This document shows positions 18,396 through 47,046 of a stretch of 64,000 nucleotides of DNA, piece by piece (the stretch's first letter is position 1; each line of letters starts with the position of its first letter). The stretch spans positions 1 through 64,000 of the IMG/VR virus record IMGVR_UViG_3300026521_000466. One strand, given 5' to 3'. The DNA is from a virus. A program made the position numbers and the translations under genes. Below the pieces are notes generated by a model. The model had not been told where the DNA came from. It searched no databases and saw only the letters and a program-made list of their open reading frames with translations.

Positions 18396-21300
18396 TTAAA
18401 AATTACCCTCTGCAAATCTTTTGTTCATTTCCATCAGTATCAAGTTTGTTGTAGCTATATCCTCTGGCGAGTTTACGATTCTTGCGCCCACACTTCTTCT
18501 ACTGATTTTTACATCAACGCTTCTACCATCCTCGGTAAGTAATTGTTCATAGATATCACCAACTGTATTTTTAAGTTGGTTACCCACAATAATTTTATCA
18601 CCTATAGTTAAAGTCTTCTCTTTTTCAATATAGTATTTGATATAGAGTTCATCTTCTGCTAGAGGTTTTCCTTTTATAGAGAATGTGTTTGTTACCTTGC
18701 CTGTATAGCCATAAAGTTCTTTCATTACCTTATCAGTCTTTTTAACCAATGTTTGTAACTCATCACTCAGTTCACTCAACTCACAACGATAGTATATCTC
18801 ATATCGAAACAGTGTCCCTTTTGCTTCAGCATAAACGTTATTTGTTTTTAAGTCGTCTATCTTCTCTCTGCTCTTCTTGAACACTGTGTCACCAATATCA
18901 TCTTCTGTAGTTAGTATATAACTGAAAACAATATCGTTATGAGATACTTTTGATCCCAACTCTGCAAGCTCTTTTATTTTGATGTCTTTGCTAAAACTTT
19001 TTCCGTTTACTTTGGTTACTTTCGTAGTAAAGTTTTCGCTAAACTTTTTACTTACGGCACAACTATCTTCGTATGTTTCATCGCTCTCTTCAAGAGCTGT
19101 CAACGCAGTCTCACCTACTTTATAAACAATACGCTTTCTATTAAACATATCTCTTCCAAAGAATAGATCGTCGTAGAATATGATATCGTATTCATTTACA
19201 GTATCACCTACCTTTAAATTGGTAACACTCTTATGTTTATAAGCTAATCCACCTACCTCTTTGGTAGTCCATTCTTTTAGCTTGTAGCTGACCTCTTTTG
19301 TTCCATATAGTATCTTCACCTCTTTATCAGTGACTTTTATTACTTTACCTTTCTCAGTAGCATATGTAACGTACTCTTTATTCATTCTGTATGGAACTAT
19401 TGATTCAAACCCTGTTCTAACAGGCAGTGATCTTTGATTCTTGGTAGGTATGATATGAGCATTTTGAATGGATATATAGAGCATACGTTTACCATCATCG
19501 GTTGTTGACCCTGGCATTAACAATACACCGCTACTAAATACATTAGCTGCTGTTATTTCTGACATGTCAATGTCTTTTAAAACACCATATATATTATTTA
19601 TTTTCGGAGAGGCACTTAGATATGTAGTAATACCAATATCGGCACTATCCTTTGACGCTTCTGATATTATACCAAAGTTAGACGGGTCATATACACGGTC
19701 ATTCATTGCAATAGAATCTTTCTGTCTACCAAACTTTCCGGTGAGTGTAACCTCTTCTTTTTGTTTCATAATGTTTAATGGGTTCATGTCTGTGTCAAGT
19801 ACAAATGTTCCATCTTCCGATAACATCCCTAAGAGCTCGTATGGATTTACAGTAACTTTACTGGTAACCAATCCTTGTCTCTGAGTCTGGTCCCTTATAG
19901 CTTTTGCCATAATATGATAGAGCATACCATTAAGTCTCTCATACCCTTTAACCATAATTCCATCAGAATCATTCTGAGGTTTGTAGTAATCGTCCTTCAA
20001 TAATTCTGCTGTTTTATACAGTATACCAACAAATGTAGTAGGTTCTTTTCTTAATTTAAGAATATCTTCTGTTATTGGATCGATCCACATAGCTTTTAGA
20101 TTGTCAAGTTCTATAAAAGTTCTTCTCTTATATCCTATTAACATCATTAAGTCACGCACTACACTACGTATATTAAGGCTTTTGCTATCGCCCTCTTTAA
20201 GTTCGGGCATTACTGTCAATGCTCCCACAACCACTTCGGTCCAGTCTCTTTTTACTACATACTTGGTGTCTTTAAAACGAATGATATATTCATCATGTTC
20301 AGTAATTACTCTTTTATTCGCTTCGTGCTCTTTATATTTAACGCCTAATGTGTTAAACATATTTGTGATGCCTTTGTAATACATCAATACCAGAGCCAAT
20401 GGTATCCTTTCGCCAAGCATATTAATAGTAGCATATTCGGCTTTTATTTTTCTTCTATCAATTCCAAGGAATGTTATAAAGTCATCAACATCATTTCCCT
20501 TTGCATCTAACAACACGCCGTCGTTTCTAAGATAGTAATAATTATTTTGTTTATCTTTTCCTACTACAATGCCATGTTTTTTATCATGTTTTGGAAAGAG
20601 TTCATCTATTTTACTATAGTTGAACGAAAAGAATATTTTATCTTTTATAAATGATTTCACTACAGACATCATTGTAGTATATAAGAATGGCAGATGTACT
20701 TTTACTACAGTTGCTTTTCCCAATACCAGCATAGATATCTGATTGTTGTCTTTTAATTTTTTCAACTCTCTTAGAATGGACGCGGACTGTTTGTTCTTAT
20801 TCATCTCACCACGTTTCACAAACATTTTATTGTAGTATGACGTCAGCGCTACTTCATTAGGTTTGACTTTTTTAATAGGTACGTCAGTTTTCATTTTTCG
20901 CAGTCGGTATTTATTTGTATTCAACTTCATGTATCCCTCATCATCAAGTGCGGGTATTCTTTGGTTTAGTGTTATTGTTGTCCCATTTGGTGTTAACATG
21001 GGAGTTGATAATATTTCTATATCATCAGATATATTCGTATCTTTTTCTGTTTTTATTTCATTCGCAAGGTACCCAGATTTTCCAAAGGATAACAGGATTG
21101 CTTCTCTCTGTTTTTTATATACCTTTTTAATATATTGTTTATCGAATGCGTCCACTGTATTTTCAAGCATACCTTCGTCTAACACAGTGTTCTGTTTAGG
21201 AAGTTTTTTCATCTGCAATTCGATATCTTCTTTAGTAAGTTTTAACTCTTCTAATCGTTTGTTGTTTTTTTCTATTAGCGGTAGAGCTTTCTTCACATAG

Positions 21301-22397
21301 CTATCTTTTACCATGCCGTCATCTAACTTATCGTTGATGTACTCTTTGGCCGTTTCCTCAAATGACTCTTCTTTTGATATTACTTCGTCCATGGTTTCGG
21401 CATGGATGGAGATAGTTTCATCTTTTTCTAGTTCCTCTTCCACTTTTTTATTGTGGACTTCAATGAGGTCTTCAACATCATCTTCCTTACTATCATTTGA
21501 GATAGCTACGTCTGTTTTGCTATTTTTCTCTAGTTCTTCCAAAGTGCGCGGTGTTTCAAGACTGATTTTCATTAGATAAGTAATGAATATTTTCATAGCT
21601 TTATCTGGGGATACCCCTTTTATAGGTGTCAATATATCATTGTCCTCAGAAAGACTGAATAGATTTTCTATACTACACATAGTAACTTTTCCAAGGTATC
21701 CAAAAACAAATACTATGTCACTGCTCTCTATATTTTTTATTCTGGAGAAAACACTTTTTCCTTTTGTCTTTTCGTCGAACATTTTCAATATTTCAAGTAT
21801 CAGTATCATGTCTTTGTTTTTAACGATGTCAAGTGAACGATATCCATCTTTCTTTAATGCGTTTTTTATTTCATTTAGTTTAGGCATGGATCTGGGAACA
21901 GGCACTGTAATAAATATTTTCCTATCTGTTATTCTATCTGGTTCCATAGACGCATCGACTAAGGTCTCGATCAGATTTCTCTCTTTGTCATACTCTGATG
22001 CTTTATATTTTTGATATTTATAAATTGTATCTAATCTATACAGATCCAGCATAATAACTTTATTACTTTGTGTCTGATATAGTTTTTTTACACTTGGAAC
22101 AAAGTCAAAATCTTTATCCCTATCCATCTTTTTTGCCATGGTATTTAACATAGACTGTTTAATATTTCTTTTTGAATATTTGCCAGGCAACTTTCTAAAA
22201 TAACTGTCTAGTATCAATACTTTAGTAGGACCTACTATATTTTTGAATAGCGGGTTTCCTATGTATTCTTTGTGATACCATAAAACAGCACTATTCTTTG
22301 GAAACAGGAATTCATTACTGTTTATGATTTTTGGGTTAATGAAGTCGTATTGCTTCCTTACACCGAATATTTTCTCCATTTGTTTATATGTAAACAT
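18396..22397 (-). CDS. phage RNA polymerase beta subunit, N-terminal and central part (virion RNAP type)
   Basis: A 1333-residue protein. Around residues 895-925, RVYDPSNFGIISEAS followed by DSADIGITTYL aligns with the cellular beta segment VHPTHYGRVCPIETPEG.NIGLI. At 1266-1280, GDKIIVGNQLKNTVG corresponds to GDKMAGRHGNKG, keeping both active-centre lysines (K1268, K1276), followed by EDGRSVDVKISRRSVGAR. The chain stops about 60 residues later, so the C-terminal clamp part is missing; I find it at 46387-47046. The N-terminal third is divergent and lysine-rich. The gene is 11 bases downstream of the beta-prime piece. Adjacency to the tape-measure gene matches the phiKZ virion polymerase, which is packaged and transcribes early genes. 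Confidence 0.88.
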   Translation of the reverse strand: MFTYKQMEKIFGVRKQYDFINPKIINSNEFLFPKNSAVLWYHKEYIGNPLFKNIVGPTKVLILDSYFRKLPGKYSKRNIKQSMLNTMAKKMDRDKDFDFVPSVKKLYQTQSNKVIMLDLYRLDTIYKYQKYKASEYDKERNLIETLVDASMEPDRITDRKIFITVPVPRSMPKLNEIKNALKKDGYRSLDIVKNKDMILILEILKMFDEKTKGKSVFSRIKNIESSDIVFVFGYLGKVTMCSIENLFSLSEDNDILTPIKGVSPDKAMKIFITYLMKISLETPRTLEELEKNSKTDVAISNDSKEDDVEDLIEVHNKKVEEELEKDETISIHAETMDEVISKEESFEETAKEYINDKLDDGMVKDSYVKKALPLIEKNNKRLEELKLTKEDIELQMKKLPKQNTVLDEGMLENTVDAFDKQYIKKVYKKQREAILLSFGKSGYLANEIKTEKDTNISDDIEILSTPMLTPNGTTITLNQRIPALDDEGYMKLNTNKYRLRKMKTDVPIKKVKPNEVALTSYYNKMFVKRGEMNKNKQSASILRELKKLKDNNQISMLVLGKATVVKVHLPFLYTTMMSVVKSFIKDKIFFSFNYSKIDELFPKHDKKHGIVVGKDKQNNYYYLRNDGVLLDAKGNDVDDFITFLGIDRRKIKAEYATINMLGERIPLALVLMYYKGITNMFNTLGVKYKEHEANKRVITEHDEYIIRFKDTKYVVKRDWTEVVVGALTVMPELKEGDSKSLNIRSVVRDLMMLIGYKRRTFIELDNLKAMWIDPITEDILKLRKEPTTFVGILYKTAELLKDDYYKPQNDSDGIMVKGYERLNGMLYHIMAKAIRDQTQRQGLVTSKVTVNPYELLGMLSEDGTFVLDTDMNPLNIMKQKEEVTLTGKFGRQKDSIAMNDRVYDPSNFGIISEASKDSADIGITTYLSASPKINNIYGVLKDIDMSEITAANVFSSGVLLMPGSTTDDGKRMLYISIQNAHIIPTKNQRSLPVRTGFESIVPYRMNKEYVTYATEKGKVIKVTDKEVKILYGTKEVSYKLKEWTTKEVGGLAYKHKSVTNLKVGDTVNEYDIIFYDDLFFGRDMFNRKRIVYKVGETALTALEESDETYEDSCAVSKKFSENFTTKVTKVNGKSFSKDIKIKELAELGSKVSHNDIVFSYILTTEDDIGDTVFKKSREKIDDLKTNNVYAEAKGTLFRYEIYYRCELSELSDELQTLVKKTDKVMKELYGYTGKVTNTFSIKGKPLAEDELYIKYYIEKEKTLTIGDKIIVGNQLKNTVGDIYEQLLTEDGRSVDVKISRRSVGARIVNSPEDIATTNLILMEMNKRFAEGNF

Positions 22398-22408
22398 AGT
22401 TGTCCTTT

Positions 22409-24001
22409 TTAACGTGTCATGAATTTCATCATTTTGCTAGTGATAGAGTCATTCAGGGAGAGTAATGATTTACCGTCTGTACTAATATATAGTACATCTC
22501 TATTAAAGAGTTCCATAGTTTCCTCTATACTGTCATCCATCATCAGTGCTGTAACAGACATTTGATCTCCGTCGCGGTCGGCTCCAAAACCTTCCATTCT
22601 CATAAACGGAATATTCATTCCATGCACCCACTCATTATCCTGTGTAGGGTATTTATTTATAGAATACTTTTTACTATCAATTCCAACATATTTGAATTTT
22701 ACATTTCTTGTTTTTGTTGTTGTGTGTAATCCTAATATTACAGGTACAATACTTCCTTGCTCAGCGATAGGATATCTTGTTAATACAGCAGGGTATTTAT
22801 TTACAGTTTCATAAATAGATAGAAAGAATAACTCCCCGTATGTTATAGGTCTTAAATATTTGCTTTCTGGTATACTATGAGGGTCTGCATAATACGTGAT
22901 TGTTTCACCAGTGTCTTCCAATACTGCAAGGTAATGATCTTCAACCATAACAGGTTCGTTATTGATACTGCTATCCATTAGCATATTCATTACTTTGTCC
23001 AAACCATCGTCTGTTAACCAACGTCTTTTTACTTTACTGGTAGTTGGTATAGTAGTGAGCTTCATATTTTTATCAAATAGGTAAACATCATCTCTCTCTT
23101 CACTAATCGCATTTGAAATGAATTTTGATATAACATGGTGTTTTGTTATTGGGTCTAATGACTTTGTATACTGTAATATACCTACTTCACATCTATCTAT
23201 GATATCATCAGGTATCTCATCAAGTCTTTTCAATTTTAGCGGTGTCCCGGTAATAACGGTTCTACTTCTATACTCCACTGCACGACTGAAGTAATCACCA
23301 TTGATCAAACCTTTTTTACCATTTAAAAATCTCTTTATAAAGTCTCTAAGCAACTCTATTTTATTCTGAAGATTAAACATAAATGCATCGGCTGTACTAT
23401 CGTGGTCTATATTTTTCAATATTTGAGCAGCATTAAAGATAGCCCTATAGTAATCGTTTACCTCGTTTTCAATAACCCTATCATGTTTATCAACTTCAAA
23501 ATCTCTTAATCCAGCTGGGAGTACTAGCAATTTGTCGTTAGTGAGCGTTCCTTTCTTTTGATATTTTTTAAACACTTCAATAATATCATTACGTTCTGCA
23601 CCATCTCTCTTAGGAGGGTTTAGTTCATATACATGTTTCATAAAGAATGTAAAACCTGTCTCTCCATTGGCAATATCGCTGGCTTCAAAATCTTTTGTTT
23701 TGTTATTGAATACAGCATACGCTTTCCCGGCCATAATGTTCATATATAGTTTGCTTAGTTTTGTTAAGTAATAATAGATACGAGGATGTAACAGAGGAAC
23801 ATATATATCAATATACGCAAATGTTGTCATTCTTTTTTCGCTTCCTACACTGCCAAATATCCTTTGAGAATAGAGTCCGTTTTCGTCTATCTGTCGTCCC
23901 ATATTTTCAAACAGGTTTACTGTCGTTATCTCATTCATAAATCTTACATATTGTTTATTCGGAAATATTAATCCGAAATACATATATTCTTTTTCATTCA
24001 T
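22409..24001 (-). CDS. phage RNA polymerase beta-prime subunit, N-terminal part with catalytic loop
   Basis: A 530-residue protein ending shortly after the nucleotidyl-transfer loop GADRDGDQMSV (residues 473-483). D475, D477 and D479 match the metal-binding NADFDGDQMAV loop of all multisubunit polymerases; the usual Phe is Arg. Upstream, SRAVEYRSRTVITGTPLKLKRLDEIP resembles the beta-prime SGRSVIV.GP.L segment. The rest of beta-prime (bridge helix, trigger loop) is absent, as in phiKZ where it is a separate gene. I start at 24001 because AAGGATATGAG precedes that ATG; the frame itself opens at 24031. The 24002-24097 gap holds a symmetrical pair of CATTGATT elements. Confidence 0.92.
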   Translation of the reverse strand: MNEKEYMYFGLIFPNKQYVRFMNEITTVNLFENMGRQIDENGLYSQRIFGSVGSEKRMTTFAYIDIYVPLLHPRIYYYLTKLSKLYMNIMAGKAYAVFNNKTKDFEASDIANGETGFTFFMKHVYELNPPKRDGAERNDIIEVFKKYQKKGTLTNDKLLVLPAGLRDFEVDKHDRVIENEVNDYYRAIFNAAQILKNIDHDSTADAFMFNLQNKIELLRDFIKRFLNGKKGLINGDYFSRAVEYRSRTVITGTPLKLKRLDEIPDDIIDRCEVGILQYTKSLDPITKHHVISKFISNAISEERDDVYLFDKNMKLTTIPTTSKVKRRWLTDDGLDKVMNMLMDSSINNEPVMVEDHYLAVLEDTGETITYYADPHSIPESKYLRPITYGELFFLSIYETVNKYPAVLTRYPIAEQGSIVPVILGLHTTTKTRNVKFKYVGIDSKKYSINKYPTQDNEWVHGMNIPFMRMEGFGADRDGDQMSVTALMMDDSIEETMELFNRDVLYISTDGKSLLSLNDSITSKMMKFMTR

Positions 24002-24025
24002 CTCATATCCTTGGTTGAATAGTCT

Positions 24026-24067
24026 AATCAATGAAAAAAGACTTCTGATACTTCTTTTTCATTGATT
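24026..24067. promoter_or_regulatory. symmetrical divergent promoter between polymerase and tape-measure genes
   Basis: AATCAATGAAAAAAG (24026-24040) and CTTTTTCATTGATT (24054-24067) are inverted copies around 13 bases. Each copy reads toward one of the divergent genes, so both start with the same CTTTTTCATTGATT element. The TTGATT part fits the second promoter motif seen ahead of other virion genes. It could also fold as a hairpin; the promoter reading is favoured because transcripts diverge here. Confidence 0.45.
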
Positions 24068-24097
24068 GCTACCTTTATATAGGAAAAAGGAAATGAT

Positions 24098-27000
24098 ATG
24101 GCTGATTTTGATGATTTAGATATGGGTCTTGATGACCTTGATAATGAGATAGATAATATGGATATTGGTGGTGGGAACACTAACCTAAAAGATAACCGTA
24201 AACCAATTGTGAAAGCTGCGTCTAATGCAGTAGCTGGTATAAAAGAGAATATTAAAACTGATGGCGTTGTAAAAAACGCTAGTAAGATAATTAATAGCGC
24301 CATGCCGTCTGTCTTAGGCGACAAGGGAAGTGATGGGTTAAAAGAGGTTACTGAAGAGGTAATAGATAGTATAGATGAGGTAAAAGAGGCTACACAAAAA
24401 GCAGCTTCGCCTCTATTAAAGAATTTAAAGAGAACGCTACCCAAAGATAGTATGTTCTCATCATTTGTTGATAAAATAGCATCTGTCACCGGTATAGACC
24501 TTGACAGATCATCAAGTGCTTTGTCCGAACCCTCTGAAGATGATAAGATATCAGCTTCTATAACTGAAACTTTTCAAGGGATAACAAACAATCTAAACGA
24601 GACACAGACTAAGATGGCTGCCCTTAGTGCGAGTGTAGCAGATGAAAATACTAAAAGGGTATTGTCCAGTCAACACGGTATATTTAATGTACTTTTATAT
24701 AACTCAAGAATAGCAGATACATATTATAGAAAAAGTATAGAGTTAAGTTATAAACAACTCTTTGAATTGAAACGTATTGTTAAGACTCAAATATCTTTGA
24801 ATGAAATTAATGTTGAAAAACTTGATGCCATTGTAAAGAATACAGGTTTGCCGGATGCGATAAAGTTAAGAACATCTGAAGCTGTTAAGCGTCAATTCCA
24901 AGCTAATGTAGGTGAATCATTATATCAAACTATGATAAGTAATAATGATTGGATACAGACTGCAAAGAAAGGTATTCGTAGAAAAGTAGGTAATTTCAAA
25001 AATTCTGTAGTTGATGCATTTATGATCGGAAATGAATCATTAAATGGTTACAACGACATGAATGAAATGATGTCTGGTGATATGCTAGACCCTGAATTTA
25101 TGACACCTGAACAAATGGCAGCTATGTCCAAAGAAGGCATACTTGCGGGACAGGCTACAGATTTCGGTAAGACTTCCATAGGTCGTCTTATAGGTAAGCG
25201 CTTATCTAAAACGAAAATCGGCAGACGCATAAAGTCAAATACAGATTATGTAATGGCAAATCCATATGAATTTGCAAAAGAGAAAAAAGCAGAATCTACA
25301 GGTATAGCTAGTTGGTTATGGGGCTTGGGTGCTAGTGTATTGAAACCAGACACTATGTATCAAGATATAAAGATCAATCATAAAGCATATGGGATAAATG
25401 ATATTGCACAATGGGATGGTCGTTCATATATGACTTTGAATTCTGTAATTCCTGGCTATTTATCCAAAATGCTTAATGAGCTAATGACAATGAATGGGAA
25501 ACAACCAACAGATTTAAAGTTTGATTATACAAAGCGTGCGTTCAGATCTGTTTCCAGTGTTACTAAAGATTTAAGAAAAGAGTTATCGGATGAATACACT
25601 CAAAAGAATGTAGGCACTAGGTTTAATACTCTAGTGGATAGACTTGAGAATAGTTCTGATATAAAGCTATCTACAAAAGAACGTAGAAAGTTTATCAAGG
25701 CATTAGCTAATCATGAAGGTCCATTGGATGTGGACAGAATAGAGAAACAGATAGCTAACGGTAAGTTTATAAAAGGGCTATCCGCAAAAGAGAAAATGAA
25801 GTTTACATCTTTGATAAAGAATGCTGGCGGTGAGCAGTATTTCGATAAAGAAGGTAAATTGGTCACAGATTCTGAAAGAAGATTTGAAGTAAATGATATG
25901 CTTAGGTCAGTGGCTAATAGCAAAATAAATGCTAGAGAGAGAATTGAAAGACTTATAGAGGACGGTTTTAAAGAACCGCTTATTAAGTCAGGTATTGTGA
26001 CATATGATAAATATGATGATTCGTACACTATTGATTATGACAAGTACAATGATTTCAATATCTCCGCTATGATGGATGCGTATGATAACAATATACTGCA
26101 TATAACAAAATCCAAAAAAGAATCATATAGAAATGCACAAAGTATTAAGAAGGCAGCTACTGGAGTAAAAGAGACTACTGTCAATCTTTTAAACACTGGT
26201 AAAGAGAAAGCGGGAACCTTTATAAAAGATAAGAAGATAGACAAATATTTTAAAGAGAAATTTGGCATTATTAAATCTGGCGCAAAGGATATTTACAATG
26301 GCCTTAAAGGTAAAGTGGAAGAGACTGAACTATATAAAACAGTGGCTAACTATCTTGATGCTCAGCTGAAGCCTTTACGGGACGAGTATGTTTCCCTCAA
26401 AGCGAGATTAAAAGTAGCTGATGGTGAAGAGAGTATAAAACTTAACGCCATGCTAAAAGAGGTAGAGTCATCTATCAGAAGTATTGAAAAAGAGAAACAG
26501 TATTATGCAAAACTAAAGGCAAAGGCTCTAAAGACTAAAAAATATTTAGAGAGTTCAGATGCCTATTCTGTAGAGAAAGATATTATCAAGATTTATGGGA
26601 AATTAAAAAGCGGTGCCGTCAATATTATTGAGGATAGAGAACTTGACGTAATGTATAAAGATATTACAGACCTATCTGCTAATATAGCAAGTGGAACAAA
26701 ATCAATATTCACATCCATGAAAGGGAAGGTAAAAGATACCGAAGTTTATAAGCAGACTAAAGAGTACTATGATACACAGACTAAAAAACTAGAAGAGAAA
26801 GAGTCTATGTTAGAGGCGGCTATTGAAACACTCCCTCCTGAAAAGAGAAGTAAGGCAAGAAGAAAATTAAAGAAATCGAGAGTCAAAATAGCCAGAGGCA
26901 GGCGTAAAGCGGAAAAAGAGCTACAGAATATATCCAAAGACACCATACGGACGAAAGCCAGTGAGACAGGTGCTCAGATATTTGGTACATTAAAAGAGGA

Positions 27001-30000
27001 TATGAAGTATACTAAAATAAAGAAAGCTGCAAAGGATGGTATTGATAAAGTAGATGTCGAGGCAGGTAAGAGTGGTTTGACAGGAGCAATAAATAAGCTA
27101 GTTAATATACTATCTCCTAAGAAGAAAATACAGGGTGATGAGGATGGCGATGGGCATAAAGACAACTCATGGTGGTCTATTCTTAGAAACAGAAAAAAAG
27201 AGAAAGAGAAAGAGGATAGTAAGAAGACAGTTGAGAAAGAGGAGAAAAAAGATGAGAGTTTTTTAACTAAAATATTTAAAACACTTGGACTTACTCTATT
27301 ACCGACGTTAATAGGCAAAATGTATACAGCCACTACTACCGCATTCTCTATATTGAAGGACATAGGAAAATCAGTATGGGGCGTTGGAAAGTTCTTTGGT
27401 TTCGGAGAGAAAGGAATGAATATAACTTCAATGTTTACTACATTTGCAAAGTATATAGGCACTAGCATGGCAGCATCATCATTAATGTCTGGTGGTTTTG
27501 TGTCGAAACTCATAGGTCATGCATTTACCATGTTAGGCATGAAAAAAGTTGGCGACTTCTTCAAAGGTGCTGGAAAAGCAGCTAATGAGAGCTCTAAGAA
27601 AATGATGAAAGGTAAATCTGTTTTCAGTAAGTTACTGAATGTAGCTAAACGACATAAAGGGAAATTACTATTAGCTACAGCCGCGGCAGGTATGTTTTCG
27701 GCAACACAATCAGAAGCATCTGATGATTTTGAATTGCCTGATATTAATTTACATGGAGCAGAAAAATCTAAAGAAGAGGATTCGGTTAAGGAAACAGGAG
27801 ATGATAATAGCGCTATCAGTATGGGCACTGATATAGCAACTGCTATGGCTGGAACATATGTGGTTGATAAAGTTATTGATAAAGTAGTTGGTGCGTTTAA
27901 GAAAAAAGATCCTAAAACTAAGGTTGTTGAGGAGCAGGCTAAAAAATCAGCTACTGGAGCAACAAAATGGCTTAGTAATAAGATAAAGTTATTGAAAAAT
28001 CCGAAAGTAGCTAAACGAATTGCTAAAATGGGTATTAAAAAGATACCTGGCATTGGATTGGTTGCTAGTCTAGGAACATCTATTGCAGATATGGCTGCCG
28101 GTAAATATAAAAGTGCAGGGCTTGGCGTACTCAGTGGTCTTTTGTCTATGATACCAGTTGTTGGCACGGTAGCGTCTATAGGTGTTGATATGTATGCGGA
28201 TGAGCCATCTAAAATAGAGTCTAAGCAAGAAATAGATGCTAAAGACCTTAGGGCTTCGCAAATAGCTGATGATATATTAGCTAATGAAAAGCAAGCAGAA
28301 TCTAATAAGAAAATAAATGAGGGTAAAGTATTAAAAGATAGATTTGATGCTATGGTTGCTGACAAGGGTGTTGTTGCAGAGAATACTTATAAGTCTAAAA
28401 AAGGAAAAGCTTCTATTACTTTTTATAAGAAAGATAATAAAATAGTTGGGCGAAAAATAGTTAATGCCGAGGGCAAAGTTACAGCAGCAATAAATGTTAA
28501 CGGAAAATTAAAGACATTTGATTATGATGTTGATAAACAACAAGTAAAACCTCTTAAAACAATAGATTATACTAAAAAGAAACCGCATGCAATAGAAAAA
28601 ACAGAAGTTGGAAATGCTGTAGTTCATGGGCACGAAGAGACTACCGCTTCCACACAGCCGCCCAAAATAATTAGAAAAATAATAACTAAGGGTGATAGAG
28701 TATTATTAGAATTCATTTCTAATAAAGAGAGCTCCAAGGGGGATCGCGGATATAATATGGTTGTTGGTAATGTAGATATAGGTAATAAGAAACTCACAGA
28801 GATGACCATCTTAGAGATATATAAATTGCAATCTATAATTAAATCACAATATAAAAAATCAGGCGCAGTCGGTAAATATCAGTTTGTGCCAATAACACTA
28901 AAAGAAACTGTGTCTCAATCTAAAAATTTAGGCATTACTAATAAAACACTTTTTACACCATTGACCCAGGATGTTTTAATAAAACAGAGATTAATAAATA
29001 AAAGAAAATATGACCAGTGGAAACTTGGAAATCTTTCAGATGTTGAGTTTGCTTATGAACTGGCAAAAGAGTTTGCATCTATTAAAGTACCTGGTACAAA
29101 CCATGGATATTACGATGCCACCACCAGTAATGTAGGCACAGTAAACTCTAGTGCAGTAATTGACACATTAGTTAAAGTAAGAGAGATAGACGGGTGTAAG
29201 TCTCACCCCGATAATGTTAAGCACGATACGTCTAAAATAGCGGGCGAACATTCAAAAACTAAACAGGGCCAGAATAAGCAATCACAGCCAGCTACTGTCA
29301 GTGGTCCAATGGCCGGATTGAAAATGGCTATTAATGCAGTTATGGAATTTTTTGGTGCTGAAGCGCCGACATCATTATCAACTCAACCAGCAAGAGAACT
29401 TGAAGATGCAGAGGGCAGACCTACGGTAAATATGGACTCCACAGTAGGTAATCTAAATAAGACTCCTATAGAATTGCCAGGTGGTGTAGATGCAGAACTT
29501 TGCGGCATAAAGGCAAAAAGGCTCTCCGCATTAGCATTTGGTAAAGCGGTAGCAATGGCTAATAACAGACATTTTAAAGGCGGTAAAGCTGAATACCTTA
29601 TGGTGCACAATACAGCAGGATCATCTCTCTATTTAGGTAGGATGAAGAAAGACGGTTATGGTACACAGTTATGGATTGATAAATCTGGTGCTGTTACTAT
29701 CATAGGTGATATTACACAGATCTATTATCATGTCGGCCCTGTAAAACCAGAGTGGAAAGGAAAAGTTAGTTCTTATAATACTATAGGTATTGAAATGGTC
29801 TGTGCTTATAAGAATGGTGAGTGGGAACCATATACAGAAGCACAAAAGAAAGCGTTATTGCAAGTAGGTTCATGCATTATGAAAAAGTTTGGAATTGACA
29901 GAGATCATATACTTTATCATGAGCAGGTATCCTATAAAACAAAAGACGAAGGCCGAATAGGCGCAATGATGTTAAAAGGCGTGGATGTAGGCGATTCAAA

Positions 30001-30430
30001 AGAACCTGATCAAGTAGTGTCAAAGCAAGCTGATGTGAGTGCCAACGTTGCTATGCCGAGGAACCAGCATGCAAAGAAAGAACTAGATGATGCAGAAGGT
30101 ATTAAACACATGGTTGTAAATAAAACAACCAGTAAGAAAAATAAAGATCGTATATCCTCACTTTCAAATTCTACACTTGATATAATAGATCCAAGTGCCG
30201 ATATACTACGTGCGAATAATGATCTATTAGATTTAGGATATAAACGACTTAATACATTAGAATCTATTGAGAAATATATGAAGATAATGGCCGAGAAGGA
30301 CAATGCCACAATACACCATCATTATGATGAAAATAAGAAAATAATAAAAACTGAAAAGATAGAAAATGAGAATAAGAAAACCTTTGATGTTATAGAGAAA
30401 GATAAAGAGCCAAAAATAAAACTGAAGTAG
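24098..30430 (+). CDS. giant tail tape-measure/cell-puncturing protein with two peptidoglycan hydrolase domains
   Basis: A 2110-residue protein. The N-terminus is acidic (DDLDMGLDDLDNEIDNMD). Long helical and coiled-coil regions fill most of the chain, with a repeated module at about 735-760 and 873-900 (KGKVEETELYK and KGKVKDTEVYK). Hydrophobic stretches at about 1055-1110 and 1310-1370 resemble tape-measure membrane-active segments. About 1535-1690 looks like a lysozyme/transglycosylase fold: catalytic E in SNKESSKGDRGYN, then SGAVGKYQFVPITL. About 1825-1965 is an Amidase_2 domain with VHNTAG, YYHVGP, NTIGIEMV and HEQVSYKTKDEG. It sets tail length and opens the cell wall during DNA entry. 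phiKZ gp181 occupies the same position and carries a transglycosylase. Confidence 0.9.
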   Translation: MADFDDLDMGLDDLDNEIDNMDIGGGNTNLKDNRKPIVKAASNAVAGIKENIKTDGVVKNASKIINSAMPSVLGDKGSDGLKEVTEEVIDSIDEVKEATQKAASPLLKNLKRTLPKDSMFSSFVDKIASVTGIDLDRSSSALSEPSEDDKISASITETFQGITNNLNETQTKMAALSASVADENTKRVLSSQHGIFNVLLYNSRIADTYYRKSIELSYKQLFELKRIVKTQISLNEINVEKLDAIVKNTGLPDAIKLRTSEAVKRQFQANVGESLYQTMISNNDWIQTAKKGIRRKVGNFKNSVVDAFMIGNESLNGYNDMNEMMSGDMLDPEFMTPEQMAAMSKEGILAGQATDFGKTSIGRLIGKRLSKTKIGRRIKSNTDYVMANPYEFAKEKKAESTGIASWLWGLGASVLKPDTMYQDIKINHKAYGINDIAQWDGRSYMTLNSVIPGYLSKMLNELMTMNGKQPTDLKFDYTKRAFRSVSSVTKDLRKELSDEYTQKNVGTRFNTLVDRLENSSDIKLSTKERRKFIKALANHEGPLDVDRIEKQIANGKFIKGLSAKEKMKFTSLIKNAGGEQYFDKEGKLVTDSERRFEVNDMLRSVANSKINARERIERLIEDGFKEPLIKSGIVTYDKYDDSYTIDYDKYNDFNISAMMDAYDNNILHITKSKKESYRNAQSIKKAATGVKETTVNLLNTGKEKAGTFIKDKKIDKYFKEKFGIIKSGAKDIYNGLKGKVEETELYKTVANYLDAQLKPLRDEYVSLKARLKVADGEESIKLNAMLKEVESSIRSIEKEKQYYAKLKAKALKTKKYLESSDAYSVEKDIIKIYGKLKSGAVNIIEDRELDVMYKDITDLSANIASGTKSIFTSMKGKVKDTEVYKQTKEYYDTQTKKLEEKESMLEAAIETLPPEKRSKARRKLKKSRVKIARGRRKAEKELQNISKDTIRTKASETGAQIFGTLKEDMKYTKIKKAAKDGIDKVDVEAGKSGLTGAINKLVNILSPKKKIQGDEDGDGHKDNSWWSILRNRKKEKEKEDSKKTVEKEEKKDESFLTKIFKTLGLTLLPTLIGKMYTATTTAFSILKDIGKSVWGVGKFFGFGEKGMNITSMFTTFAKYIGTSMAASSLMSGGFVSKLIGHAFTMLGMKKVGDFFKGAGKAANESSKKMMKGKSVFSKLLNVAKRHKGKLLLATAAAGMFSATQSEASDDFELPDINLHGAEKSKEEDSVKETGDDNSAISMGTDIATAMAGTYVVDKVIDKVVGAFKKKDPKTKVVEEQAKKSATGATKWLSNKIKLLKNPKVAKRIAKMGIKKIPGIGLVASLGTSIADMAAGKYKSAGLGVLSGLLSMIPVVGTVASIGVDMYADEPSKIESKQEIDAKDLRASQIADDILANEKQAESNKKINEGKVLKDRFDAMVADKGVVAENTYKSKKGKASITFYKKDNKIVGRKIVNAEGKVTAAINVNGKLKTFDYDVDKQQVKPLKTIDYTKKKPHAIEKTEVGNAVVHGHEETTASTQPPKIIRKIITKGDRVLLEFISNKESSKGDRGYNMVVGNVDIGNKKLTEMTILEIYKLQSIIKSQYKKSGAVGKYQFVPITLKETVSQSKNLGITNKTLFTPLTQDVLIKQRLINKRKYDQWKLGNLSDVEFAYELAKEFASIKVPGTNHGYYDATTSNVGTVNSSAVIDTLVKVREIDGCKSHPDNVKHDTSKIAGEHSKTKQGQNKQSQPATVSGPMAGLKMAINAVMEFFGAEAPTSLSTQPARELEDAEGRPTVNMDSTVGNLNKTPIELPGGVDAELCGIKAKRLSALAFGKAVAMANNRHFKGGKAEYLMVHNTAGSSLYLGRMKKDGYGTQLWIDKSGAVTIIGDITQIYYHVGPVKPEWKGKVSSYNTIGIEMVCAYKNGEWEPYTEAQKKALLQVGSCIMKKFGIDRDHILYHEQVSYKTKDEGRIGAMMLKGVDVGDSKEPDQVVSKQADVSANVAMPRNQHAKKELDDAEGIKHMVVNKTTSKKNKDRISSLSNSTLDIIDPSADILRANNDLLDLGYKRLNTLESIEKYMKIMAEKDNATIHHHYDENKKIIKTEKIENENKKTFDVIEKDKEPKIKLK

Positions 30431-31358: not shown

Positions 31359-32951
31359 TTAGATCTTATCACTATCATCGATGGTGATTGCCACTCTTGT
31401 AGTTAAGAGATTGCATGCTGCTGATACAGCGTTCTTTAACGCTGTTTCAGTTACCAGATATGGATCAACAATACCATGCTCGAAGATGTTATCAACTATT
31501 CTGTTTTTAGTCAAGTGATAGAATCTATTTTCTTCGCATGAGATACTGGCAAGCTGTTCTGCTTGGGTGTCATCAGGCGATGCATCATAATAATTCATAA
31601 TCAGCTGATATAGTGGATCGCATAGCACAGACCATACCACCCGTGTTCCAGGAGTCATATTTGATATATCACTATGATACTCTTTATATATTTTATTATA
31701 AATGCTGGATAACGCATTTCCACCCCCTGGCACTACACCCTGTTTCAATGCAGCATCTACCGCAGCTACAGTGTCATCGTATCTGTCTTTTCTCTCTTTG
31801 GCCTCTGCCTCTGTACTACCACCCACATAGATAGTGGATATTTGGCCTGATAGTTTAATTACCCTCTCTTCTAGTTTACCTTTTAAGAAAGGATCATCTT
31901 CTTCATCAATAGCTTTAGTTAATGCTTCGAGATGATCTTTTAATGTATCAGCATCAGCAGATCTTTTTAAGACGATCTCTTCAGTAGTAAGTTCAATCTC
32001 ATCTACTTCTCCTAATTTGATAGGCCCGCAGGATTCGGTTGTTGTAATGCCTGTATAAGCAGCGATATCCATGGCAGTGTCTTTTTTTCTTTCTCCGAAC
32101 CCATCTAGTTTCACAAAGACAATATCCAAGCCCGACTGTCTAATTCTAAGTTGTCCAGCTACTAGATTTGGTACTATCTTGTCAGCTATATCTTTTACGA
32201 AGATCACCAATCTTTTAGGCTTATTCTCTCCAAGACTTGCGATAATGTGTTCAATGTCTTCAGCACTACTGATCTCTTTATAATGAACCAATACTTTTGC
32301 ATTAACCATTGTATGTTTCATATCTACATTCGTAAAGATATCTCTCGATATTGGATCATGCCTATATGTAAGCCCGCTTGTAGTATGGACTTTATCGATA
32401 TGCGTCTGTCCTTCTTCTACTTTCACAACACCGTTCTCATCAGCTGCCCTATACGCATCCACTACAACTTTTGCGATGGTCTCATCTCTGTTTGATGATA
32501 TCATGGCAATATCATATGTCAGAGGGCTGTGTATGTCTATAGTCTTTTTCATATTACCCAATTCAGCAATGATTGGATAAATTGCCTCCTTCATATCTCT
32601 CGTCAGTTCGATAGGGGAAATGTTTTCATTCTCCATCATGGACCGACCAGCTATATATAGTCGTGTTGATAATAGTACACTTGTAGTTGTACCATCACCG
32701 GCAGTAAGTGCTGTTTCTCTAGCTGCTTGCCGTACAAGCTTTATTGCCATATTTTCAATATGGTCACGTGACTCAACATGTTCTGCTACAGTAACGCCGT
32801 CTTTTGTCAAATGGGGATCGCCTGCATAATCCTCGATAAGTACGTTTGCTCCACCAGGTCCCATTGTGGCTACCACAGCATCAAAGAGGGTTGTTAGCCC
32901 GTTCTCGATTGTATTTGTTAAACCGCTATGGCTGAAATGTGTTTGTTTCAT
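31359..32951 (-). CDS. groEL: phage GroEL-type chaperonin
   Basis: A 530-residue complete group I chaperonin. The ATPase signatures are intact: MGPGGANVLIE (about 30-40), LTKDGVTVAEHVE (48-60), TAGDGTTTSVLL (catalytic Asp in AGDGTTT) and DDTVAAVDAALKQGVVPGGG with the second catalytic Asp. The apical domain is recognisable (LDGFGERKKDTAMDIAAYTG for KAPGFGDRRKAML.DIA.LTG). The GGM-repeat tail of cellular GroEL is absent and the end is acidic (DDSDKI). No GroES gene is in the window. The phiKZ-like phage EL encodes a chaperonin that works without co-chaperonin, so the same may hold here. Early-motif copy 4 lies 60 bases upstream; AAGGAGTAATCAA precedes the ATG. Confidence 0.95.
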   Translation of the reverse strand: MKQTHFSHSGLTNTIENGLTTLFDAVVATMGPGGANVLIEDYAGDPHLTKDGVTVAEHVESRDHIENMAIKLVRQAARETALTAGDGTTTSVLLSTRLYIAGRSMMENENISPIELTRDMKEAIYPIIAELGNMKKTIDIHSPLTYDIAMISSNRDETIAKVVVDAYRAADENGVVKVEEGQTHIDKVHTTSGLTYRHDPISRDIFTNVDMKHTMVNAKVLVHYKEISSAEDIEHIIASLGENKPKRLVIFVKDIADKIVPNLVAGQLRIRQSGLDIVFVKLDGFGERKKDTAMDIAAYTGITTTESCGPIKLGEVDEIELTTEEIVLKRSADADTLKDHLEALTKAIDEEDDPFLKGKLEERVIKLSGQISTIYVGGSTEAEAKERKDRYDDTVAAVDAALKQGVVPGGGNALSSIYNKIYKEYHSDISNMTPGTRVVWSVLCDPLYQLIMNYYDASPDDTQAEQLASISCEENRFYHLTKNRIVDNIFEHGIVDPYLVTETALKNAVSAACNLLTTRVAITIDDSDKI

Positions 32952-37383: not shown

Positions 37384-37391
37384 TAAATGTA

Positions 37392-37818: not shown

Positions 37819-37838
37819 CCATTCGGAAGACCGAATGG
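37819..37838 (-). terminator. terminator of the portal/inner-body operon
   Basis: Eight-bp perfect stem CCATTCGG / CCGAATGG around AAGA, followed leftward by a T/A-rich stretch. It follows the 56-residue membrane protein gene. Confidence 0.65.
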
Positions 37839-37840
37839 CA

Positions 37841-38011
37841 TTAAAGATATCCTAGAATTGCCCCAATGGGAGGGACTAACATACCAACTCCGCGCAGTAT
37901 ATAACAACCTGTTGAGCAGTATTCGTCTAGCATCAGTACTATATTATATATGTATCCTATAGAGAGAAATATACCAGATAATATATTTAATATTTTTAAT
38001 GTTTTTTTCAT
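37841..38011 (-). CDS. small membrane protein, 56 residues
   Basis: Found by reading the gap. The ATG at 38011 follows the stop of the 677-residue gene by one base, indicating coupled translation. The product starts MKKTLKILNILSGIFLSIGY, resembling a signal-anchor or membrane helix, has CSTGC near residues 32-36 and ends in a second hydrophobic segment (GMLVPPIGAILGYL). Two membrane passes with a Cys pair in the loop. Last gene of a structural operon; function unknown. Confidence 0.6.
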   Translation of the reverse strand: MKKTLKILNILSGIFLSIGYIYNIVLMLDEYCSTGCYILRGVGMLVPPIGAILGYL

Positions 38012-38012
38012 C

Positions 38013-40046: not shown

Positions 40047-40058
40047 AATTGTCCTTTT

Positions 40059-41923: not shown

Positions 41924-41978
41924 CTTATATCCTTTTATATTACTCATTCATTAAAAATCTGTGGATGTCATTGCCTAT

Positions 41979-44393
41979 TTACACCTCTTCATCCATTTCA
42001 TCATTTTTGTTACCTGTTCCCTCACTAGGTTTTTCTCCAGGAGTACTGTTATCTTCGTTTTCCTCAGGCAATTCATACTCATCCAGTTCATCTAGTTTCT
42101 TATCTGTCTTTTTTACATCTTTGACAGTTTTCTTTTTATAGTTTATAAATGCCTCTTTAGCATTCTCTACAAAGAGTTTATAATCCTCTAATGGTGTACT
42201 GCTTACACCGTCTTCTGTTTTGGTAAACAGAGTAAATAGTTCAGGCATATAGTTGTTCTCAGCCATCCATTGTCTTAGTAGAGCTGCCTTCATGGCATCT
42301 TTGATATCTTCAAGTTTTTCACCTATTGAACCACTTAACTCTTCAGAGATAACATCCGAAGAAAGATGAAGATCGATAACTTTCTCAATATTATCAAGTC
42401 TTGCTTCAAACTGTTTATCCAGCGCATTGTCTTCAAAGTTTTCTATCTTAGGCAATGATATTTTAAATATCTTGATAAACTCATTGATTAGGTATTCCAT
42501 TATGGCGTCGTCATCGATATTATTGTCTTTAAAGAATTGAATTAAAGAATCATCAAGTCTTCCAAGCAACTGTTTGAATCTTTTTTCTAAGATGTCGATT
42601 ACTTTGTTTCGTAGTGTGAAATCATGCTTGATTATTATCTCTGAAAATTCTTTCAGTGCTTTATTGTATGGTTTTTGTTTACGAATATTGTCTCTCGCAA
42701 ACATTAAGTTTTGCGTGTTTATAGTTCCTGCAAAATCAGCATCACTCAATGCACTCTCTGCAATCTCCGGTGCAATCCCTATTTTCATATAGGTAGCTCG
42801 TCTAAGTTCTTCATCGATATCGCTGTCTGGTATTTTAATGTCCATATCCATGACACTTCCTTCGATATCAAAGGTAGGTACATCTTTATGAGTGATGTTT
42901 AAAACCACACCACTATTATGCAACCAATCAGTTACATCAGTTGAGCTAACTAAACCATTTGGCATAGTCATTGATCTGTTTCTATTAATAAAGTTTCTTG
43001 CCTTTGCAATTACTTTATCTATACCTTTAACATCGTCATCAATAGTAATGTCATATTTCTCAAGAGGCAGGACACTTCTTAGATTACCGAATACCCTAGC
43101 GTGTCTAAGTAGAGATCGCAGTGAACTGATACTTGCCAAATCCTCTAGTACTGTTTTACCTGTTCCGTTATCTCTATAGTTTGCAGCCACATACCACAAA
43201 TATTCTTTTGGAATGAATAGTATTTTTGTTTTCTGTTTCTTCAAAGCTCTATTCAGCATAACCAGATAAATACTGTTTAACATTTCTGTATCTACAAGTT
43301 CAGAGAGCTTATTTCCAACTACCATATTTTTCAATTTGTTATCGATGATTGTTGAGGCGATATCATCAAGTTCATTAATGCGGGGCTCTTTTTTTTCATT
43401 TTCTGCCGATTTCTCTTTAGCTTTCTCTATAATAGATCTAGTTAATACTAATGCGTTAGACAAATCATCATTTTCATCTTTTTTCATTCCGTTCATTCTT
43501 GTATAGCTACTACCACTGATAGGCATGTAGTTTTCATCCAAGGTGATCACATACCCTAAATGTTTTTTTGGATCATGTTTATACGATATTGGGGTTACGG
43601 CCTCTGCTGGGATTTGCATTCTAAACGGCCTGCCTTGTGATTTATTCACTTTGGTGGAAAGAGCAAATAGATTTTTTACAGTATCCGTATCAGTTACTCC
43701 ATCTTTAAAGACTGCGTCTAGTATTTTTTTACTCTTTGCCTTGGAAATAGTGTTACTTAGATCATCACCTTCCAAATTTGCATCTAGTGATAGTTCACCT
43801 AGCTTCATTACAGACGGGTCATTAATTGGAGTTATATAATCCCCTACATAATTAAAAAACTCTCGATCGTCGTTGTCTGTTTCTATTTGGTAGTTTTCAG
43901 CAGTTCTATTTATTACCGCACTTTCAAGGTTAGCTGAGCCAGTAGTAAACATTATTTGATCTATCATCTGTTCTGGTAATATTAATTCGCAATATGCTCC
44001 GTCTGTCACCATTGCTGTTTTGATAATATCATAAATTCTCTCTTCTATTTTATAATAGTTTAGAATATCATCTTTAAATGTTTTTAATAGCTCTGTTCTT
44101 GTTTCAGCGTCAAACAGATTTGTATTTTCTGTAGACATCGCTATAGTATCTGTTATTACATCAGTAGGCGCTGTCATACTACTAATAATAATATTAAGTA
44201 TAAACTCTAATTCAGGGAATGTTTCCAATATTTCTCTGCTTATACGTTTTTTATCTCTAGTGAATCTACCGACGATGTTATAATCTATTTTATCTAGGTC
44301 TATTCCATGAGAATTGTCATCTCCATCAGAGATTATTTTATTACTGATATAGTCATGTGTGCCATTCTCAGGCTTTTTTAACGTCTTATCCAT
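41979..44393 (-). CDS. portal protein
   Basis: An 804-residue protein with portal architecture. The N-terminal region has the wing pattern (RFTRDKKRISREI followed by PELEFILNIIISSM), a long helical stem-type region lies in the middle (SALSDADFAGTINTQNLMFARDN, as in many portals), and the C-terminus is acidic, Pro/Gly-rich and disordered. Portals form the dodecameric vertex ring through which terminase packages DNA. Size and neighbouring inner-body-type genes match phiKZ gp129. I start at 44393 because AAAGG is eight bases upstream; the ATG two codons earlier is too close to it. Confidence 0.8.
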   Translation of the reverse strand: MDKTLKKPENGTHDYISNKIISDGDDNSHGIDLDKIDYNIVGRFTRDKKRISREILETFPELEFILNIIISSMTAPTDVITDTIAMSTENTNLFDAETRTELLKTFKDDILNYYKIEERIYDIIKTAMVTDGAYCELILPEQMIDQIMFTTGSANLESAVINRTAENYQIETDNDDREFFNYVGDYITPINDPSVMKLGELSLDANLEGDDLSNTISKAKSKKILDAVFKDGVTDTDTVKNLFALSTKVNKSQGRPFRMQIPAEAVTPISYKHDPKKHLGYVITLDENYMPISGSSYTRMNGMKKDENDDLSNALVLTRSIIEKAKEKSAENEKKEPRINELDDIASTIIDNKLKNMVVGNKLSELVDTEMLNSIYLVMLNRALKKQKTKILFIPKEYLWYVAANYRDNGTGKTVLEDLASISSLRSLLRHARVFGNLRSVLPLEKYDITIDDDVKGIDKVIAKARNFINRNRSMTMPNGLVSSTDVTDWLHNSGVVLNITHKDVPTFDIEGSVMDMDIKIPDSDIDEELRRATYMKIGIAPEIAESALSDADFAGTINTQNLMFARDNIRKQKPYNKALKEFSEIIIKHDFTLRNKVIDILEKRFKQLLGRLDDSLIQFFKDNNIDDDAIMEYLINEFIKIFKISLPKIENFEDNALDKQFEARLDNIEKVIDLHLSSDVISEELSGSIGEKLEDIKDAMKAALLRQWMAENNYMPELFTLFTKTEDGVSSTPLEDYKLFVENAKEAFINYKKKTVKDVKKTDKKLDELDEYELPEENEDNSTPGEKPSEGTGNKNDEMDEEV

Positions 44394-44419
44394 TTTCATT
44401 ACCTTTAAGGAGTATAATT

Positions 44420-46390
44420 ATGTATTATATTACATCAAATAATAACGTCGGTCAGATATTTAATCTGGCAAATTCATTAATAATAAAATCTCATGTCATG
44501 GCCGTACACATGAATATTCAACTAGAGAGTAAGATGGGTGTCCAATATGACAGCAATGACTTAAGTACATGGCCATATTATAGAAATTTAGCGGGATTGC
44601 CACATAATGCCAATACAGAAATTGTTGTGAGTTCGATTGATACTGGCACTAATGTTGTTATGGATAATACTTTCAAAAATACACATCCTAAAACATACGC
44701 TAAGTTAATGACGTATGACGTATTCTACGACGCATTAATTAACAAGTATGTTGGTCAAGAGTTATATATAATAGGTATGTTAAACCCAACAGACATCGAT
44801 GTTATTATATCGTCTGAAGATGGGACAATACTGTATTATAATAGAGACTATGTGGAGTATAATGAGCAGTCCCTTATACCAACATTAGAAGTTAATATTA
44901 AAGGGTATATGGCGAGGTGGTTATTTGAAGAGTATATATTGACAGATAATTTATACCTCCCAGGTTTTTGGAAAACTATGGTTGGTTTTATTGTTAAAAA
45001 GATATACAATATACGCCATAGGAACATTATTACCTATGAAGTAAATGAGTATTATAAAACAGTCATTCTAAATTCACATATGAATTTAGGTTTGTTTGCT
45101 TCTGTACTTTCAAAAGATGTAAAGTTATGGCTTGTTAAAAACATTGAATATATTAATTATAATATTGGTAAACACGAGATACTTAAATTAATAGTTGATA
45201 AAATATTTAGGCCTTCTAATATATATGTCGATGAAATAGTGTTGGAAAGAGTAAGGACAGAAAACGTAGAGGGATTGCCAGAGACTGTTACTGATCAGGT
45301 CTATATACGTGATTTTGAAACTGATAAGTCTATAAAATATAATATAGATGATTTAGCATCCATGTATCACAAAGCATATCTTATGAATTCCGATATAGAT
45401 TTAAAAAACATAATTAATGTAGAGGATAAGAGGTTAAGCGAGATAAGAGATATTGAAACGAAAACCAAATATCTGATATTAACTAACCGGTATACAGATA
45501 TTATGTCTCTTATTTACAATGTTGAATTACTCTTTGGCATTATTGTAGTTTCACTGGATACAGATGAGTCTATAAGATTTACTCTAAAGTGTGGCAAAAC
45601 TATATACACTACAAAAAAAGAGTTACTACGCACATTCATCTATCTGCTGTTGAAGTATCATGGTGATTCTGATTTTCATATTGAGAATGTTATTATACAT
45701 AGTATAATTTCTAATACTGCATCTGAATATGGGATAAATTACACACCTATCAGCGATTACCTCAATGTAGTAAAGTCAAATATAGATACAATACTTCAAG
45801 AAGAGAGTGATTTTGTAAAGCAACAACATGAAATATATAAATACTTACAAACAGAGAGAAGTAACTTACCAGATGATTTTTTTAGATTTGAATTTGATAG
45901 GTTTGTACATAGTATAAGAGATGAAAGTATTATTAATATCGATGTGAATAATAACCTAAGTAATGATTTATTATCAACTGTTATTACATTTGAACAACTA
46001 TTTGAAGCTATATGTGAGATAATGAATATCAGTATTCCCGATAATGATCGAGCAGATATGTTCAAAAATATAATGGATAGATTAACATCGTATACAATTA
46101 ATGCGGTGGTAGCAAATAATACATCTGATGCATTTATACCAGATCATACAATGAAATTAGAAGGACCAACTATAGCTACTATAGATGGGGCTACATTAGA
46201 TTGTAGAGGAGCTGTCGCAGAGCCTACTCCTATGGCTGATACTAGGAAGGCAGTAATAAGAAGAGGCAATAACGATATATTGTTTATAGAAGATATGGAA
46301 GCCCCTATATTCTTTACAAGGGCAGTAAAGGGAAGTACTCGCATAGTAAAAGATAGAATGCTAATAGACATAATAGATGCAGGGGATTAA
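44420..46390 (+). CDS. virion-type protein, 656 residues
   Basis: No family recognised. Starts with a beta/helix N-terminus (YYITSNNNVGQIFNLANS), then long mixed regions rich in Ile, Tyr, Asn and Asp, ending in a beta-rich 80-residue tail (KLEGPTIATIDGATLDCRGA...). AAGGAGTATAATT marks the ATG at 44420. Its start codon is only 26 bases from that of the divergent portal gene, so promoters for each must lie within the other's coding region. It overlaps the convergent beta C-terminal gene by four bases. A virion role is likely from composition and location. Confidence 0.68.
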   Translation: MYYITSNNNVGQIFNLANSLIIKSHVMAVHMNIQLESKMGVQYDSNDLSTWPYYRNLAGLPHNANTEIVVSSIDTGTNVVMDNTFKNTHPKTYAKLMTYDVFYDALINKYVGQELYIIGMLNPTDIDVIISSEDGTILYYNRDYVEYNEQSLIPTLEVNIKGYMARWLFEEYILTDNLYLPGFWKTMVGFIVKKIYNIRHRNIITYEVNEYYKTVILNSHMNLGLFASVLSKDVKLWLVKNIEYINYNIGKHEILKLIVDKIFRPSNIYVDEIVLERVRTENVEGLPETVTDQVYIRDFETDKSIKYNIDDLASMYHKAYLMNSDIDLKNIINVEDKRLSEIRDIETKTKYLILTNRYTDIMSLIYNVELLFGIIVVSLDTDESIRFTLKCGKTIYTTKKELLRTFIYLLLKYHGDSDFHIENVIIHSIISNTASEYGINYTPISDYLNVVKSNIDTILQEESDFVKQQHEIYKYLQTERSNLPDDFFRFEFDRFVHSIRDESIINIDVNNNLSNDLLSTVITFEQLFEAICEIMNISIPDNDRADMFKNIMDRLTSYTINAVVANNTSDAFIPDHTMKLEGPTIATIDGATLDCRGAVAEPTPMADTRKAVIRRGNNDILFIEDMEAPIFFTRAVKGSTRIVKDRMLIDIIDAGD

Positions 46391-46404
46391 ACCCCGGCAT
46401 CTAT
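46373..46404. terminator. palindrome with overlapping convergent stop codons in its loop
   Basis: ATAGATGC/GCATCTAT and, after one mismatch, GGGG/CCCC form the stem; the loop ATTAAA contains TAA of the rightward gene and TTA (TAA leftward) of the beta C-terminal gene. Confidence 0.65.
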
Positions 46405-47046
46405 ATGTATTGCTTTCATGTATGCTTTTAACGTTTTCCCTATTTGGGTTTTATCCATAAACGGTTTCAGTTCTTGTTGGTTGACTTTGCCTTTTTTCAT
46501 AAGCATTCCTTTGAATGCATTTGAAGCACTTACATCACCGCCTCTAATTCCGAGTAGTTCTTTTAGAGAAACATCCATACCAATAGATTTCAGTATTTGC
46601 GTCTCCATATTTGAAAGTTCCCCACTTTTGCTATCACCTGCCACTTGGCCGGTGATGGTATTTCTTACCTTAGTGTTTTTATGCACTGTAAAGTTCTTCA
46701 TAATGTGTTGAGCAGCTAATCTTACCGGGAGTTCCAATATCTGATATTTGATATCAGGGGTAAATACATTTTCACCATCAGTAATGGTTAGTTTTTGATA
46801 TATATCTATTTTTAACTCTTTCAGTATCTTTCTGTTTCTGTTGGCATCTAACTTTATTTTAGGATGACCTTCTGGAGCGATTATGGTTAATGTACTTTTA
46901 CCATCTTTAATATCTTGTCTAAGTTGTTCAAACTCTTTATTGGAGAGTCCTTTAAAGAACTCTTCATATATTTTTTTATTTTCTCCGCTCGGGTCTATCT
47001 TTTGTATATATTTAAGAATAAACGACTCTGCTTTTTTTCTATCCAT
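46387..47046 (-). CDS. RNA polymerase beta subunit C-terminal piece
   Basis: A 219-residue protein that I align with the C-terminus of cellular beta. SGELSNMETQILKSIG (141-156) matches FGEMEVWALEAYGA, and VSLKELLGIRGGDV (159-172) matches YTLQEMLTVKSDDV; the preceding QILELPVRLAAQHI...KVRNTITGQ corresponds to [22 protein letters not shown]. This anchors to the beta-prime N-terminus in cellular enzymes. It would complete the beta piece encoded at 18396-22397, which stops just after its GDK motif. In phiKZ the virion enzyme likewise has a separate beta C-terminal gene (gp149) near the RecA-like gene, as here. Alignment was by eye; identity is low outside these motifs. Confidence 0.75.
   Translation of the reverse strand: MDRKKAESFILKYIQKIDPSGENKKIYEEFFKGLSNKEFEQLRQDIKDGKSTLTIIAPEGHPKIKLDANRNRKILKELKIDIYQKLTITDGENVFTPDIKYQILELPVRLAAQHIMKNFTVHKNTKVRNTITGQVAGDSKSGELSNMETQILKSIGMDVSLKELLGIRGGDVSASNAFKGMLMKKGKVNQQELKPFMDKTQIGKTLKAYMKAIHIDAGV

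Follow-up and report, generated by a model that had tools for sequence, protein, structure and literature searches.

Genes for a phiKZ-type virion RNA polymerase, with beta in two pieces and beta' in three, in a divergent phage record of ~165 kb

The virion RNA polymerase (vRNAP) of phiKZ consists of gp178, gp149, gp180, and gp80 plus gp176. Of these, gp149 co-purifies with gp180, gp178, and gp80 (PMC10612078). The SPN3US enzyme comprises five polypeptides (gp241, betaN; gp218, betaC; gp240, beta'N; gp42, beta'M; and gp244, beta'C), a division based on genetics and mass spectrometry that has been in print since 2016 (PMC5105663). SPN3US heads without beta N lose gp218, and beta N is needed to package the other subunits (PMC5105663). 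In 201phi2-1, mass spectrometry identified the beta C homologue, gp233, as a virion protein. Phages of the AR9/PBS1 type also have two split multisubunit RNA polymerases (RNAPs). A cut of beta' after the DxDGD double-psi barrel is shared by both polymerases (PMC7598289), and beta' of the vRNAP is cut once more, giving three pieces (PMC5105663). The arrangement described here is already known from phiKZ, 201phi2-1, SPN3US, and JM-2012.

We analyzed a window of 64,000 nucleotides, corresponding to bases 1-64000 of the linear IMG/VR record IMGVR_UViG_3300026521_000466 (164797 bases). Beyond the window, we went through the record stretch by stretch and used blastp to compare its ORFs with the phiKZ and JM-2012 proteins from annotated records. 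By homology to phiKZ, all five vRNAP pieces and all five nonvirion RNAP (nvRNAP) pieces are present in the record (Table 1); the phiKZ identities of the vRNAP pieces are low (27-29%). The record almost certainly encodes the virion RNA polymerase of a phiKZ-type phage, with beta in two polypeptides and beta' in three. An initial annotation, made from the letters of the window, had proposed a polymerase of this type with beta in two distant genes, and the homologies to gp178, gp180, and gp149 bear it out.

Table 1. Predicted polymerase genes and their neighbors (positions in the window unless marked as positions in the record).
Feature	Position	Strand	Remarks
Head maturation protease, Peptidase_S80, phiKZ gp175 relative	15412..16245	(-)	E 1e-42; last gene of the block compared
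Putative vRNAP beta' C piece, phiKZ gp176 / SPN3US gp244 relative	16196..16927	(-)	gp176; phrog_2926
466-aa protein, phrog_3841, function unknown; phiKZ gp177 position	16917..18317	(-)	Same operon; conserved position
vRNAP beta N piece, phiKZ gp178 / SPN3US gp241 relative	18396..22397	(-)	1333 aa; phrog_3148, gp178 match
vRNAP beta' N piece, phiKZ gp180 / SPN3US gp240 relative	22409..24031	(-)	GADRDGD loop; phrog_2986; gp180
phiKZ gp181-like virion protein, C-terminal Amidase_2	24098..30430	(+)	2110 aa; divergent from the beta'/beta operon
vRNAP beta C piece, phiKZ gp149 / SPN3US gp218 relative	46387..47046	(-)	phrog_3233, gp149, profile, AlphaFold2 fold
UvsX/RecA-like ATPase, phiKZ gp152 relative	48342..49781	(-)	Near the beta C piece
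vRNAP beta' middle piece, phiKZ gp80 relative	record 110046-111308, outside window	(-)	~420 aa; gp80 match
nvRNAP set	record 78549-82509, 85630-87120, 118216-119658, 139717-141417		phiKZ gp55, gp68, gp71-73, gp74, gp123 relatives

The beta N product matched PHROGs phrog_3148 (E 4e-256) and, by blastp, phiKZ gp178 (28% over 1000 aa, E 4e-119). It contains the segment GDKIIVGNQLK, in which both catalytic lysines were aligned by eye with those of E. coli GDKMAGRHGNK, and the chain ends approximately 65 residues past this segment. Both the ORF and the motif were thus as the initial annotation had given them for a beta piece that stops just past GDK. The window copy of the gene is uninterrupted.

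The missing C-terminal region of beta had been assigned to the 219-aa gene, which lies 24.0 kb from the beta N gene, and the gp149, PHROG, profile, and fold comparisons agree with this assignment. The 219-aa protein matched phrog_3233, an RNAP beta family (E 2e-57), and phiKZ gp149 (29% over 216 aa, E 3e-26; blastp). A profile of ten beta C sequences, searched against the PDB, hit mainly RNAP beta chains, in E. coli beta at residues 1160-1316 (E 0.007-0.024). With 47 sequences, the profile reached an E value of 0.0024 in the same region; the match maps to E. coli beta 1158-1310. The AlphaFold2 model had a mean pLDDT of 75, with a low-confidence stretch at residues 117-142. When it was compared with the PDB using Foldseek, the top 48 matches were all RNAP beta chains, with the AR9 nvRNAP as the best fold match (E 5.6e-3). 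The model superimposed on several bacterial beta chains at 3.6-3.9 A over ~100 columns. Its full-length rmsd is large, presumably owing to a different orientation of the two halves in the lone piece, and the Foldseek E values reach just 6e-3. By sequence, profile, and predicted fold, the 219-aa protein is assigned as the beta C-terminal module. A match of the beta C piece in Staphylococcus phage PALS_2 was weak (E 0.5), and we put it down to chance.

We also considered whether the 219-aa gene encodes an unrelated virion structural protein, the beta C-terminus being missing altogether. Many records name beta C homologues 'putative virion structural protein', the 219-aa protein was not recognised by Pfam, and PF04560 was silent in the record. 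This silence was shared by the beta' C model: PF04560 (beta C, Rpb2 domain 7) and PF04998 (beta' C) gave no signal across the record while the controls were positive, showing that the sequences are divergent. The profile of the 219-aa protein matches the bacterial beta C-terminus, however, and its predicted fold matches RNAP beta first. In addition, the co-purification of phiKZ gp149 with vRNAP subunits (PMC10612078) contradicts an unrelated structural protein, as does the loss of gp218 from SPN3US heads that lack beta N (PMC5105663). We consider this alternative very improbable. Structure prediction and comparison with gp149, both proposed in the initial annotation, gave the RNAP beta C match. 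Because the fold matches RNAP beta and a second copy of the beta C piece was not found in the 164797-base record, the assignment of this gene to the beta C-terminus stands.

The beta' N product (540 aa as an ORF, with a likely ATG start at about position 24001) matched phrog_2986 (E 4e-127), phiKZ gp180 (28.7%, E 4e-54), and JM-2012 TSMG0119 (E 7e-68), the latter two by blastp. It carries GADRDGDQ, and its ORF ends approximately 55 residues further on, in agreement with the proposal that this piece stops just past the DxDGD loop. The initial annotation had further placed the C-terminal part of beta' outside the window and suggested looking for a gp80-like gene in the rest of the genome. Such a gene was found (blastp E 2e-32 to phiKZ gp80), and this part of the proposal holds; the last piece, in contrast, lies inside the window. 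The middle piece, like the beta N, beta' N, and beta C pieces, falls in a PHROGs RNAP beta/beta' family, and it matches bacterial beta' 740-934 as well as phiKZ gp74. We dismissed a cut inside the trigger loop, with the middle piece ending near ...MSKFHATTYNLVELTVDDLF: inspected by eye, the end of this piece lines up with the DLF that follows the trigger loop of bacterial enzymes.

The last piece, with a probable ATG start at 16897 and a product of ~233 aa, matched phiKZ gp176 (blastp E 6e-17) and phrog_2926, a family labelled 'virion structural protein' (E 4e-38). In the fold search, its best match was core chain F of the AR9 nvRNAP, a weak one (E 0.013), and its profile gave no RNAP match in the PDB. 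Since these comparisons yielded little, we base its putative role as the beta' C piece chiefly on its homology to SPN3US gp244. Judged by homology, beta' of the vRNAP is in three pieces, not two. Scans of viral contigs with the single 219-aa and 243-aa proteins gave no matches, and profile scans were needed.

The nvRNAP set raises the question of which polymerase is which. As the record contains both sets, the 18396-24031 genes might belong to the nonvirion polymerase, with the virion set elsewhere in the record. The orthology is one-to-one, though: the window pieces correspond to gp178/180/149/176, and the nvRNAP proteins gp71-73/74/55/123 have their counterparts at 78-82, 118, and 140 kb. 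An exchange of the two sets is therefore extremely improbable. The gp123 relative lies at ~139.8-141.4 kb of the record.

With the window set read as the vRNAP, the cuts in the two polymerases can be compared. The gp71-73 relative, nvRNAP beta C, is a single uninterrupted gene of 693 aa. The beta N profile, up to residue 1330 of 1333, aligns with residues 19-444 of this chain (E 3.5e-5). The active-site segment and the C-terminus are joined in the nvRNAP chain and separate in the vRNAP; consequently, beta is cut at different places in the two enzymes. The suggestion that both polymerases are divided alike thus holds for the beta' cut after DxDGD and fails for beta. A comparison of the beta C profile with the nvRNAP chain by hhalign gave no match, probably because the nvRNAP profile contained three sequences only.

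The beta cut was then compared among relatives. The beta C piece was at least 80% covered in 273 of the 276 matching phage records. At 67 of 67 IMG/VR loci, beta C was a standalone ORF of 222-297 codons from stop to stop, and neither a beta N-beta C nor a beta' N-beta N fusion was found in 80 further loci. The operon of beta' N, beta N, (a small gene), gp177, gp176, and protease genes is also present in SPN3US, pVa-21, FLC6, and sm033, and in all four the gp181-like gene diverges upstream of it. Homology of the pieces, catalytic motifs, cut points, gene order, and a universal beta cut among relatives were all observed directly.

These data bear on whether the split is recent and peculiar to this phage, that is, a broken or intron-interrupted beta gene. 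Introns do interrupt the beta N and beta' N genes of other members (PMC11620839). Their sites are elsewhere, however (beta N profile position ~1025; in beta' N, the GAD preceding DGD), and neither gene is interrupted in the window. Moreover, all relatives examined share the position of the cut, and beta C stands alone in its own conserved neighborhood. We give a recent split almost no credence: because of its constant position, the beta cut is inherited across the whole clade. That the cut, which differs in place from the one in the nvRNAP, is maintained by selection, since separate shorter chains may permit packing, ejection through the tail, and reassembly in the cell, is a speculative and rather unlikely explanation.

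Interruptions of the N-terminal genes were seen at several loci. The beta N gene is interrupted at profile position ~1025 in L100, L115, L121, L122, L125, L126, L139, L141, L153, and L155. This is probably the intron/homing-endonuclease site already described for PhiPA3 gp210; a further break, at ~545, is present in L122 and L155. In L099, L101, L106, L107, L109, L111, L134, L138, and L148, the beta' N ORF ends at profile position ~480-485, with GAD before DGD. These GAD-ending ORFs, like the annotated phiKZ gp180, probably reflect intron insertion within the codons for DxDGD.

The gene neighborhood resembles that of phiKZ. There, gp149 (224 aa) is ~27 kb from gp178, the RecA-like gp152 is near gp149, gp181 diverges beside gp180, and gp175-177 are downstream of gp178. 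The proximity of a RecA-like ATPase to the beta C piece, as the initial annotation had it, was confirmed by matches to phrog_97 (E 9e-31) and phiKZ gp152 (blastp E 1e-58). In contrast to the window, where the beta' N gene is uninterrupted, the annotated gp180 ORF stops at GAD in the catalytic motif and gp179 lies between gp180 and gp178; the orientation of the blocks is also not alike. SPN3US has the same operon, with divergent sequence. JM-2012 (Halocynthia (Vibrio) phage, 167 kb) is of comparable genome size and encodes relatives of these vRNAP and nvRNAP pieces; its TSMG0067, annotated as a gp149-like beta piece, lies 13 kb from TSMG0076. Its beta' N gene (TSMG0119), however, is elsewhere rather than beside beta N, and its beta and beta' N pieces are 25-30% identical to those of the present phage. 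AR9-type vRNAP beta C pieces bear an N-terminal HD domain (PMC7598289), whereas none was recognised in the 219-aa protein by Pfam or PHROGs.

The neighbor of the beta/beta' genes had been called a tape measure protein. This 2110-aa product is instead a gp181 relative, as identified by blastp via JM-2012 TSMG0075 and by phrog_3201, and we found no tape-measure evidence. For phiKZ, gp181 has been described as a hydrolase that acts on peptidoglycan and belongs to the puncturing device of the baseplate (PMC5380687). The product encoded here bears an Amidase_2 domain close to the C-terminal end (E 3e-12). As the phiKZ protein is reported to be a glycosidase (lysozyme or lytic transglycosylase), one enzymatic domain seems to have been exchanged for another. 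A GroEL-like chaperonin gene (Cpn60, E 1e-40) is located at 31359-32951(-), and JM-2012 has one too.

By analogy with phiKZ, SPN3US, and 201phi2-1, the vRNAP pieces would be made late. As in the relatives, the five chains would assemble before packaging, without alpha or sigma, into a bacterial-type core; neither alpha subunit nor sigma-70 domains were found in the 164797-base record, which may be incomplete. The assembled enzyme would be packed into the head, enter the cell along with the DNA by ejection, and transcribe early genes, those for the nvRNAP among them. Both virion packaging and a use in early transcription are inferred from homologues.

Other genes in the record give the phage context. 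A divergent chimallin-like gene (record 121926-123674(-)) matched phrog_4795 (E 1e-13), with the Pfam chimallin model silent, and a PhuZ tubulin gene (record 129358-130410(-)) matched phrog_4733 (E 2e-26). Carrying both, the phage is probably nucleus-forming (Chimalliviridae). The size of the record, ~165 kb, is like that of JM-2012, and a relative with 54% beta' N identity (L095) is in a contig of 164667 bases. The ORF for the ribonucleotide reductase large subunit (record 143998-147000(-); 1000 aa as read, with the ORF running past the stretch edge) has an HNH-endonuclease-like insert at residues ~383-473, which may be an in-frame intein or a comparable element.

The split polymerase is a published, defining trait of phiKZ-type phages, and what is new here is one more divergent member of the clade; it raises no question beyond those that phiKZ already raises. 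With this phage, the well-described two-polymerase system of the phiKZ type gains a divergent representative and a full inventory of ten RNAP pieces, the virion set being intron-free. According to a 2020 review, no vRNAP had been purified as yet, and the mapped cut points may aid vRNAP reconstitution.
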